Origin: Sulfurovum sp.
Lineage (GTDB): Bacteria > Campylobacterota > Campylobacteria > Campylobacterales > Sulfurovaceae
Reading direction: 5' to 3'
Assembly: GCA_011391015.1 (NCBI GenBank)
Contig: JAABRH010000002.1
Location: forward strand, 1 to 64,000
Length of the DNA: 64,000 bases
Shown: one piece after another, positions 49,050 to 53,182 of the stretch
How positions within the stretch are numbered: the first letter of the stretch is position 1
Layout: the number at the start of each line of letters is the position of its first letter
Translations under genes and position numbers: made by a program
Notes under the pieces: generated by a model
What the model saw: the letters and a program-made list of their open reading frames with translations, nothing else
The model's database searches: none
What the model was told of the DNA's origin: nothing

Positions 49050-49412
49050 ATGAGCCAGCAGCTTATACAGTATCTTCCTTTTTTGGAGAAGATGAAAAAA
49101 TATCCTTCCTCACTCTTTTATAAGGGCAGTCTGACTTTGTTGGAGAGACCCAAAGTATTCATAGTCGGAACCAGAAAACCTTCAGCCTATACACGGCAGT
49201 TTACAGACATGCTTGCAAAGGCTTTAGCCAAACGAGGGGTGTGTGTAGTCAGTGGTGCAGCGATGGGTGTAGATGCGATCGCACATACGGGTGCCGGAGA
49301 GGGAAATACCATAGCAGTAGTCACTAATGGCGTAGATATCCGTTACCCTGCTATCAATAAAAATCTGATTGAGGCGATTGAAAAGCAGGGTATACTGCCA
49401 CTAAAAAACTAG
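49050..49412 (+). pseudogene. dprA: DprA N-terminal fragment (DNA-processing protein A)
   Basis: FIVGTRKPSAYTRQFTDMLAKALAKRGVCVVSGAAMGVDAIAHTGAGEGNTIAVVTNGVDIRYPAINKNLIEAIEKQG; stops in inserted DNA. Confidence 0.9.
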
Positions 49413-49417
49413 ACAAC
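49391..49417 (+). repeat. Left 27-bp terminal inverted repeat of the dprA-splitting insertion
   Basis: TATACTGCCACTAAAAAACTAGACAAC; 21/27 identical to reverse complement of 52169-52195, including first 11 bp and last 7 bp. Confidence 0.7.
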
Positions 49418-49454
49418 AATCCAGAGAAGTTTGAGCAGTAAAATCACTATAAAT

Positions 49455-49877
49455 TTAGTCTACTTTGCGTCCTGCATAATAGTTTATTTTCCAACCACTC
49501 TCTTCTTTTGAAAGATAAAGTTTCTTCATCTTGTCTTCTTCCCTATAATCAACTGTCTGTCGCTTATCTCCGTTCCAAGAAGTAGATACGATTTTGATTT
49601 GTCGCGAAGGTTTTCTTGTTGCAAGGTCAGCCGAAAGTCGGCTTTCCACTGCAACAAGAGAAGCGGAGTCTTCTTCTATTTTTCCTAGTTGCTCTTTAAA
49701 CTCAGCATCTCTAAAGGACAATCTAAGCCCAAAAGTCTCAAGAGTCATAAAGTAGGATTTCTCCGTCATTAACTCCCTAACCGTGCCAAGATCACCACTA
49801 TACAGTGCATGATAATAAAGTCCAACTACTTCTCTTGCTGATAGAATCGTAAAGGAAGAAAATCTAGCCTCTGACAT
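49455..49877 (-). CDS. Hypothetical protein
   Basis: 140 aa ORF, SnoaL/DUF4878-like appearance only; directly downstream of DUF2202 gene. Confidence 0.6.
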   Translation of the reverse strand: MSEARFSSFTILSAREVVGLYYHALYSGDLGTVRELMTEKSYFMTLETFGLRLSFRDAEFKEQLGKIEEDSASLVAVESRLSADLATRKPSRQIKIVSTSWNGDKRQTVDYREEDKMKKLYLSKEESGWKINYYAGRKVD

Positions 49878-49886
49878 TTAAAATTC

Positions 49887-50450
49887 TTACGCTCTTGCAA
49901 TCGCAGAACGGAATGCATCAAGGTGGCTCAGGCTACCTTCTTTGAGGTTATTATACACATTTACTACATCGCTTGGCATGCCAACAGAAGCTTCTTCTAG
50001 GTCTTTAATGTCTGTAACTTCAATAAGCTCACCAACTTTAAGTGCATCAAGGAGCGAAGCTGAACCTTCTGCAACGCAAGTGTCGTATAGCTCTTGAAGT
50101 ACAGGTAAAACGAAGTTTCCTACACTACTTTCATTTACTCCAACAATACTTACGCCATACTTTGTACACAATCCTCTTGCAGAATCAATGTGTCTTTGCT
50201 CTGAAAGCTGAATAGAAGCAAATGTATTTTCATTTGGGTACATTTCCCCAAGAGTAATATACACATCTCTTGCTACTTTTTCTTCCTGATAGATAAAGAA
50301 TAAGTGATCCTTTTGAGCATTCGTCATAGGTGTTACTGTTGCTGTTCTTCCTTTGGCTGATGCTGCTGTTGATAGCATTGTTGCTCCAACAATTCCTGTT
50401 GTGACCATTTTCCCCAAGAATGCTCTACGTGTATTTCCATTTTGTTCCAT
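49887..50450 (-). CDS. DUF2202 ferritin-like protein with Tat-type signal
   Basis: NTRRAFLGKMVTTGIVG; LFFIYQEEKVARDVYITLGEMYPNENTFASIQLSEQRHIDSARGLCTKYG. Confidence 0.88.
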   Translation of the reverse strand: MEQNGNTRRAFLGKMVTTGIVGATMLSTAASAKGRTATVTPMTNAQKDHLFFIYQEEKVARDVYITLGEMYPNENTFASIQLSEQRHIDSARGLCTKYGVSIVGVNESSVGNFVLPVLQELYDTCVAEGSASLLDALKVGELIEVTDIKDLEEASVGMPSDVVNVYNNLKEGSLSHLDAFRSAIARA

Positions 50451-50720
50451 TTATTCTTCCTCCTATATTGTTTTGCTTTTTACAGCAAAAATATTTTAAC
50501 ATAATTTATATATAAAATTTATTTATTACTAAATATAAAAAAAAAATAATATTTATCAGCCATCCAGATCAATCAAAAGGCCAAGAGGCTTGTATGTTTG
50601 ATGTGCTGTGTAAGTCACCGAATTATTATTTCTTTTCGAAAAGTGAAGATAGAATGCCAGATATAAATTTAAGAAAAAATTAATATAGAATCAAAAACGT
50701 TAGCACTATATTTTTGTAAC

Positions 50721-50740
50721 GTAAACTACAATTAGTTTAC
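50721..50740. repeat. Perfect 8-bp inverted repeat with 4-bp spacer
   Basis: GTAAACTA-CAAT-TAGTTTAC. Confidence 0.6.
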
Positions 50741-50778
50741 AAAAAAAGACCCAAAGTTGTCACAATTGTTTTACAAAA

Positions 50779-50872
50779 GTCGAGTCTCGATGGTGTTTTA
50801 CAGGGACTTAATCTCTTGCCTAACTAGCTCATGAGCCGGAGGTCGAGGGTTTGAGTCCCTCTCTTGACGCCA
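50779..50872 (+). tRNA. tRNA-like sequence (degenerate; class II length, possible Leu-TAA, or a tRNA 3' fragment/att remnant)
   Basis: GTCGAGT/TCTTGAC acceptor-like pairing (6 of 7 incl. wobble), CAGGGACTTAATCTCTTG anticodon-arm-like, perfect T-arm GAGGG-TTTGAGT-CCCTC (50845-50861), encoded CCA at 50870-50872; D-arm poor. Confidence 0.4.
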
Positions 50873-50972
50873 TCAAAATTATGAACAATCCCCTTATTTA
50901 CTTAACTTTCTGAAGATTAATCAAAATTATTCACATAGTCATATTTTCATTTTATTGAGCCGCGTGTCTAAC

Positions 50973-51005
50973 TTTTTGTCCCAAAGTTATCCCGTTTTTT
51001 GCCCC
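50973..51005 (+). repeat. Short phased direct repeats, arm-site-like
   Basis: TTTTTGTCCC aaagTTATCCCG TTTTTTGCCCC; CCC cores spaced 11-12 bp; gtcccaaagttatc (50978) matches gacccaaagttgtc at 50748 in 12/14. Confidence 0.4.
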
Positions 51006-51117
51006 TGTAATTTTCATTCTTTATAAAAAAGAAAAAGAATACTATTTTAGATCAAATGTATTATCTAGAGTAGTTAGGTTGTATGAGGAGAGCATTATCT
51101 TTCCTCATGAAGTCCCT

Positions 51118-51990
51118 TTATTTACTTTGGTATGTTGTGCTGTTCACTAACTTTAATTGCCAAGAAGCTTCACCCATAATCAGTTTATATTGCAGTTGAC
51201 GTGTACCACCTTTTGGACAGCAATTTGCATCGCCTTCATTATAGACGGGGAAACGTCTTGCAAAACTATTTTCAATGAGGCTAAACTCGTCATGTCCCAT
51301 ATATCCAGCACTGTTTTTCTTATCATATTCCAGTGGTGGAAGATATATCTCAGAAAGTGACTTTTTGTTATTGGCACTATAGGCAACTAGATTGCCGTAT
51401 GCTCCACTGCCAGAAGAGTTGACATACACATAGATCTCTGGAGAACCATCTGCATTAATATCTCCTATCTCAGCACCTGTTACAGTACCATCTATTTCTT
51501 GTTTGATGACACGGTTGTCGACCTGAAGACCGCTAGGCGTAATAGTTAATTGATTGATAGAACCTTCATTAGTGGCTACGATGTGAAAGGTAATGCCTTG
51601 GAGTGAAAATGTTTTATCAAATTGTTGGGGGCTTTGCAAAGACTGTTCTTCGATATCTGCAAGGTGATACTTGTTTTTGATCTCTTGGATACGCTCTTTG
51701 TAAATATCCGTCATATAGGCTTTTGCATCTTCAACTTTCCAACACTCATTCCTTCCTTTAATCCAGCCTCTTTGATAGGCTTTTAACATATCTTCTTTAG
51801 GAGCTTTTATTAAAGCTTGTTTGTAGACATCAGAGAGTTCTCTATCAAGACTCATAAGAGTATCAGAACTACAGATAATCGCTTCACAACTTTCTTTGTC
51901 TACTTTAGAACAGTCAAAACTAGGTTGACCTGCATAAAGAGATGATGTCGATAATACCATTATAAAAAAAATACTTTTAGTCCGTTTCAT
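51118..51990 (-). CDS. Secreted LprI-N (DUF1311)-type protein fused to a PliI-like C-terminal domain; probable lysozyme inhibitor
   Basis: Signal peptide; FDCSKVDKESCEAIICSSDTLMSLDRELSDVYKQAL..YQRGWIKGRNECW (LprI type); C-terminal FARRFPVYNEGDANCCPKGGTRQLQYKLIMGEASWQLK (PliI-like). Confidence 0.7.
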   Translation of the reverse strand: MKRTKSIFFIMVLSTSSLYAGQPSFDCSKVDKESCEAIICSSDTLMSLDRELSDVYKQALIKAPKEDMLKAYQRGWIKGRNECWKVEDAKAYMTDIYKERIQEIKNKYHLADIEEQSLQSPQQFDKTFSLQGITFHIVATNEGSINQLTITPSGLQVDNRVIKQEIDGTVTGAEIGDINADGSPEIYVYVNSSGSGAYGNLVAYSANNKKSLSEIYLPPLEYDKKNSAGYMGHDEFSLIENSFARRFPVYNEGDANCCPKGGTRQLQYKLIMGEASWQLKLVNSTTYQSK

Positions 51991-52168
51991 GTCCTCTCCT
52001 ATATTTAGCTGTTATTAACGTCTTCATATTCTATACTACAAATACTTTACAATCATGAAAGATTTCATTCAGCACTTGACTATGACAAACCTATGAATGT
52101 GTATCTTAGAGGAGTAGAAAAAAGTGCTTAGATCTTTAAACAGCGGTTGGAATATAGGTTCTCAAAAA

Positions 52169-52195
52169 GTTGTCTTGATAAATGGTGGCAGTATA
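52169..52195 (-). repeat. Right 27-bp terminal inverted repeat
   Basis: GTTGTCTTGATAAATGGTGGCAGTATA. Confidence 0.7.
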
Positions 52196-52256
52196 ATTTA
52201 TTGTTTGGTAGTTTAATTATACTTTTATTCTTTTGTAACAAAATTTAGTGGTTTGA

Positions 52257-52589
52257 AATGAGTTGGTAGTGGCACTGGGTGAGATACTTGTCATCGCTGA
52301 AGCCGAGCTTGATAGCGGTTCGATGCGCTCAGCGGAGTATGCCTTGGCGATGGGGAAAAAGATATTTGTTCTACCCCATAGACTCGGTGAGAGTTCGGGT
52401 ACCAATGCCTTGCTTCAGTCATATCAGGCGACCCCTATCTATGACATCGAAACATTTGCCTCACAGTTTGGCGCTGCAGTGGATGAGTGTGTCCAAAAAG
52501 ATGATTTTTTTTACTTTTGTCAGGGTGCGCCTACTTTTGATGAAACGTTGGCTCAGTTTGGAGACAGAGTCTATGAGGCAGAGCTTTAA
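52257..52589 (+). pseudogene. dprA: DprA C-terminal fragment
   Basis: NELVVALGEILVIAEAELDSGSMRSAEYALAMGKKIFVLPHRLGESSGTNALLQ continues the Rossmann fold missing from 49050-49412. Confidence 0.88.
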
Positions 52590-52627
52590 GGCATCGTCAC
52601 GATACAAAACGGTATCGTGAGATTTGC

Positions 52628-53182
52628 TTAGAGCGTTGTCTGGGCTGGTTTTTCATCCAGTTTGGAGAGTTGTGAAATGAGTTCTTCAAGAGAAGCCTCA
52701 GGAAGCATACCGGCTTGAACAAATTGTACGTCACCTTTTGTGTCAAGTGCCACAAGGAACGGAATGCTTCCGTTCCATTGGGCTCTTTGGGAGATATAAT
52801 CTACAAGGTCCCCCGCTTTCTCTTCAGATACTGCGATGTAGTTAATCCCCTTTTCTTTCACAAAAGTTGTCACCTCGGCAGTGTTCAAGCCTTGTACTTC
52901 TATGGCTACAATGGCAAGTTTGTCTTTGTATTTGTTCTGCAGGCTCACAAGGTGCGGGATGGAAGCCAAACATGGAGGGCATTTGTGACCGAAAAATTCC
53001 AAAAAGACGATTTTTCCTTCGAGTCCTTTGATCTTAAGTCCCTGTTCTGTACCTGTGACATCATAGCTAAGTCCATTAATGTCAGTCATTGTCATTTGCA
53101 TTAAAGGGCTTTTGCTCTGGGCTGCCTGCGCAGAAGCCAAGAAGGAAAAAAGCACAAGAGCCGTCATTATTTTTTTCATCAA
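52628..53182 (-). CDS. TlpA/thioredoxin-like protein with CPPC motif, secreted
   Basis: GKIVFLEFFGHKCPPCLASIPHLVSLQNKYKDKLAIVAIEV; signal peptide. Confidence 0.9.
   Translation of the reverse strand: MMKKIMTALVLFSFLASAQAAQSKSPLMQMTMTDINGLSYDVTGTEQGLKIKGLEGKIVFLEFFGHKCPPCLASIPHLVSLQNKYKDKLAIVAIEVQGLNTAEVTTFVKEKGINYIAVSEEKAGDLVDYISQRAQWNGSIPFLVALDTKGDVQFVQAGMLPEASLEELISQLSKLDEKPAQTTL

Follow-up and report, generated by a model that had tools for sequence, protein, structure and literature searches.

A 2.8-kb insertion with IS3-family ends in dprA of Sulfurovum: a non-autonomous mobile-element derivative or scar

Transporter insertion sequences (tIS) normally retain their transposase, and IS231 is a member of the IS4 family. 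A tIS is defined as an IS copy to which passenger genes have been added (PMC3129680, PMC9330008). The mobile insertion cassette MIC231 carries IS231 ends, according to the summary of Chen et al. 1999 in PMC6542083, and ISApl1-mcr-1, as outlined in PMC5821093, is a composite transposon from which the IS copies have disappeared. We have analysed a 64-kb stretch of Sulfurovum DNA (the window) in which a 2.8-kb insertion splits the DNA-uptake gene dprA. The insertion is an unusual but recognisable non-autonomous derivative, or scar, of a mobile element.

The left terminal inverted repeat (IRL), TATACTGCCACTAAAAAACTAGACAAC, lies at 49391-49417 on the forward strand. The right repeat (IRR) occupies 52169-52195 on the reverse strand, matches the inverse of the left at 21 of 27 positions and shares an identical 11-bp tip, just as the first-pass annotation had described. 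A weight matrix built from related IS ends, the two window repeats among them, gives the repeats scores of 37.9 and 39.4, against 16.2 for the highest-scoring other 27-mer in the window; the pair stands far above background and is not a chance occurrence. Allowing up to two mismatches, the repeat pattern is found in 30 of 400 Campylobacterales genomes, among which the reversed control pattern has no match, and the degenerate IRL pattern matched one other contig in a collection of 85,462 species, which carries a complete IS3 element (G191). Other Campylobacterales contain intact relatives of about 1.33-1.37 kb, each with a single transposase ORF of about 385-420 aa; that of G224 matches the NCBIfam model transpos_IS3 (NF033516) at 1.5e-90 and contains HTH_Tnp_1, HTH_21 and rve domains. 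These full-length elements, with cognate repeats and a transposase, name the family as IS3. As in the window element, their left end is A-rich and their right end differs from it, and it is a near certainty that a single IS3-family lineage supplied both the left end at 49391 and the right end at 52195.

The TA at both outer edges had been taken as compatible with TA-target insertion. We reject an insertion of this (IS630/Tc-like) kind, because the TA belongs to a TATA tip that is part of the repeat in intact relatives, and these duplicate 3 bp; no TA is duplicated outside the repeat. In G391 and G164, the 3-bp duplications (GAA, TAT, TAA, AAC, and TTT) stand directly outside the TATA tip of five intact copies, and the complete element G191:C240 has no perfect duplication at the boundaries tested. 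The window element is flanked by GGG on the left and ATT on the right and has no 3-bp duplication; the earlier remark that no longer target duplication is visible was correct.

The element had been described as lacking a transposase. Nearly all of the gene is indeed gone, but its last 27 codons and stop are kept at 52048-52131 on the forward strand; positions 52048-52128 translate to YNHERFHSALDYDKPMNVYLRGVEKSA, which is followed by the stop and is 67% identical to the C-terminus of the G191 transposase (tblastn, 1.7e-8), the OrfB end of an IS3-family enzyme. Such a C-terminus beside the IRR speaks for the origin of the element and, with 27 codons left, not for function. The stop falls 37 bp before the right repeat, as in intact elements, so that genuine IS right-end sequence extends over about 150 bp; the IRR with the transposase end is 86% identical to another stretch of the same genome (G000:C18:20900-21054). 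On the left, no IS sequence is recognisable beyond the 27-bp repeat. The rest of the transposase gene has been lost, and unrelated DNA stands in its place between the two ends.

The IRR carries an outward TTGATA at the usual position of the -35 box of a junction promoter, and the IRL tip TATACT can, judging from its sequence, supply the -10 box of such a promoter once the ends meet in a circle. When the IRR and IRL of the window are joined with a 3-bp spacer, the arrangement is TTGATA-18 bp-TATACT; joined ends in relatives give TTGACA-18-TATACT (G391) and TTGATT-18-TATAAT (G085), and the G191 pair fits less well. A corresponding arrangement has been described for the circle promoter of IS911 (PMC9330008), which the window junction matches. 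The predicted promoter would explain both the conserved tip and the mid-repeat difference between the two ends.

The 5' part of dprA (49050-49390, forward strand; Pfam DNA_processg_A, 3.7e-33) has 113 full codons, no internal stop and 86-89% identity to the dprA of G026 and of G399. These are the closest of the relatives tested, and in both the gene is uninterrupted (the G399 assembly is 99% complete). Comparison with these empty sites fixes the left boundary exactly: homology stops at 49390 against G026, and one coincidental base later against G399, so that the left tip lies where dprA homology ends, as had been proposed. The right boundary is 48 bp away from the repeat. The first-pass annotation had recorded about 60 bp of AT-rich, non-dprA sequence after the right repeat; the tract is present and AT-rich, and its length is 48 bp (52196-52243), where it replaces 48 bp of dprA (47 in G399) before homology resumes at 52244. 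It has no match elsewhere in its own genome. Against the dprA of G399 it is identical at 20 of 47 positions (mean after shuffling 13; p about 0.01). Over the same stretch G399 and G026 agree with each other at 45 of 47, which makes it unlikely that the tract is drifted dprA, although its length equals that of the dprA it replaces and it shows a slight excess of identity. The 3' part of dprA (52244-52631, forward strand) contains, in alignment to relatives, two in-frame stops, TGA at 52254-52256 and TAA at 52587-52589. Against G026, dN/dS is 0.09 for the 5' part and 0.14 for the 3' part; the two halves are only mildly decayed, and both stops lie in the 3' part. No other DprA-family match occurs in the assembly, which is 85% complete. 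This points to the loss of the one dprA copy found there, and natural transformation is probably impaired.

Three cargo genes lie between the ends, all on the reverse strand, and Pfam agrees with the earlier calls (hypothetical, DUF2202, and LprI/PliI-like). The first (49455-49877), the hypothetical one, encodes a 140-aa protein with weak DUF4829 similarity, below the curated cut-off. The second (49887-50450) encodes a 187-aa DUF2202 protein (4.1e-30) with a twin-arginine-like N-terminus, NTRRAFLGK. The third (51118-51990) encodes a 290-aa secreted-type protein with PliI (lysozyme-inhibitor; 1.4e-6) and LprI (2.4e-5) domains. The DUF4829-like gene adjoins the DUF2202 gene in G003 and G027 as well, with DNA homology across both, and DUF2202 homologues occur in 53 of the 78 genomes of the genus (the best is 73% identical); they are widespread accessory genes of the genus. 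The LprI/PliI-like gene has 74% DNA identity to G024, where it occupies another genome location; in relatives it adjoins a conserved secreted-protein gene, away from the dprA context. None of the three has a DNA match in G399 or G026, and both insertion and cargo are missing from the nearest sampled relative (about 88% DNA identity). IS ends thus enclose genes unrelated to transposition, the arrangement of a mobile insertion cassette. Window positions 51051-51153 share 102 of 103 bases (99%) with a contig end, G000:C11:2169-2271. We note that this match gives the 3' side of the lprI-like gene a second context on the 2.3-kb contig C11, as a duplicate or a strain variant. A contig that ends in sequence common to the cargo, in a draft of 111 contigs, is what a chimeric contig might produce; however, both parts of dprA align colinearly with G026 and G399 (86-89% identity), the left junction sits exactly on the IS tip, and two matching ends stand in the correct orientation, so we consider an assembly artefact very improbable.

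Between the DUF2202 and LprI/PliI-like genes lies a feature that the first-pass annotation did not list, an att-type remnant at 50615-51002. It consists of the 3' part of tRNA-Met(CAT) (about 50828-50873, by alignment to tRNA-Met) flanked by arm-like repeats, GACCCAAAGTTGTC and GTCCCAAAGTTATCCCG; the unit is common to contig C84 (87% match to G000:C84:3844-4229), and no integrase lies near the remnant in the window. Further copies are found in G003:C2 and G027:C6 (loci L042 and L043). The tRNA-Met 3' half with about 130 bp is copied 3-4 kb from the intact gene beside groEL; between copies and intact gene there are small genes, with no integrase among the larger ORFs listed. These sequences mark tRNA-Met(CAT) as an apparent hotspot of integration in the genus.

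The genome is a metagenome-assembled draft of 111 contigs, a type of assembly from which repeats are often missing. Outside the window the repeat pattern occurs at C42:3894 and C18:20905, which brings the census to three right ends and one left end; this 85%-complete assembly yielded neither another copy with both ends nor a complete cognate IS3 transposase, only a 48-residue IS3 fragment on C19. The insertion is precise at its left end only and is seen as a single copy. The end on C42 is a 37-bp solo right end just downstream of an MFS transporter gene (G000:C42:3894-3930, G399:C28:28493-28529); we rejected it as a second cargo element, since it is an old scar that is colinear with G399 over 10.7 kb and present in two species. 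A common inner breakpoint of the right-end remnants was likewise rejected, as the C18 copy and one on an Aliarcobacter plasmid reach further into the transposase than the window copy does. The latter (L037, NZ_CP099557.1, 2748-3153) is a truncated IS3 right end with a Tn3-type resolvase gene on one side and blaVEB on the other, in a plasmid of Aliarcobacter cryaerophilus from chicken meat; it was the only match among plasmids, and viral contigs and phage records gave none. The window element is probably inert now.

Three right ends do mean that the IS once multiplied here, and two IS3 copies around the cargo could have moved on their outermost ends and then lost their inner parts by deletion: the IRL and IRR are outermost, and the transposase remnant is on the right. 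However, there is one IRL, one IRR, no inner end and no left IS trace beyond 27 bp, nothing that amounts to two recognisable IS copies flanking the cargo. We think such a compound-transposon remnant unlikely, although it is hard to distinguish from a single trans-mobilised unit once the inner parts have gone.

Two accounts remain close to one another. In the first, the IS ends and cargo would have been put together elsewhere, the resulting MIC-like derivative would have entered dprA once, as a non-autonomous element served in trans by an IS3 transposase through the circle (IRR-IRL junction) pathway, and the right flank would have been altered afterwards, a change that exchanged 48 bp and removed any 3-bp duplication. 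The exact coincidence of the left junction with the IS tip, the circle-promoter arrangement of the joined ends and the uninterrupted, cargo-free sites of G026 and G399 favour this account; the 48 foreign base pairs between IRR and dprA, the missing duplication and the lack of left IS sequence beyond the repeat count against it, as do the single copy and the missing cognate transposase in the assembly, and the patchy cargo could have come in steps. In the second, dprA at first received an ordinary IS3 element; recombination and insertions (the att element, the cargo genes) subsequently replaced or enlarged the interior of that element, and illegitimate recombination rewrote the right flank, so that the pair of ends was never mobile with cargo. 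This fits the unclean right junction without a duplication, the mosaic interior (the att-type unit common to C84, the 51051-51153 tract common to the C11 end) and the other right ends of the genome, which are plain decay scars. However, it needs several events before much decay of dprA, whose limited extent leaves little time for many separate events in situ, and the nearest sampled relatives show no intermediate. On balance we favour the single trans-mobilised insertion, tentatively and at a little under an even chance, over assembly in situ, a close rival that is a distinct possibility. The fuller proposal, that a transposase-free IS3-family cargo transposon with several accessory genes (the secreted lysozyme-inhibitor-like gene and the tRNA-Met integration-site piece included) moved as one unit in trans and disrupted the only DprA gene found, is somewhat more doubtful. 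The first-pass annotation had suggested a non-autonomous, trans-mobilised transposon or a composite remnant. The kind of element was broadly right, and the family is IS3; movement as one unit is not proven, given the lack of a target duplication, the unclean right junction, and the absence of a second copy or cognate transposase from the assembly.

If the element did move in one piece, the IS3 family of Campylobacterota would join the IS groups with MIC-type gene mobilisation, and accessory genes would be seen to travel with no transposase of their own. If it did not, it is an instructive IS scar.

Compared with known systems, the window element resembles the single-ORF IS3 insertion sequences of about 1.35 kb (G191:C240 and the G391 copies, for example) in its repeat and TATA tip, the asymmetry of IRL and IRR, the transposase C-terminus adjoining the IRR and the spacing of the junction promoter; it differs from them in having 27 transposase codons, about 2.6 kb of cargo and no 3-bp duplication. 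Like mobile insertion cassettes of the MIC231 type, it has IS ends around unrelated genes and no functional transposase, but its ends are of the IS3 family, a single copy is seen, and its trans-mobilisation is putative. It shares with tIS the presence of passenger genes inside one IS, but unlike them has lost its transposase. With the ISApl1-mcr-1 type, as far as PMC5821093 outlines it, it shares a cargo possibly moved by IS copies that are now lost or reduced; unlike that type, the window element has no full or inner IS copies and is bounded by two outer ends only.
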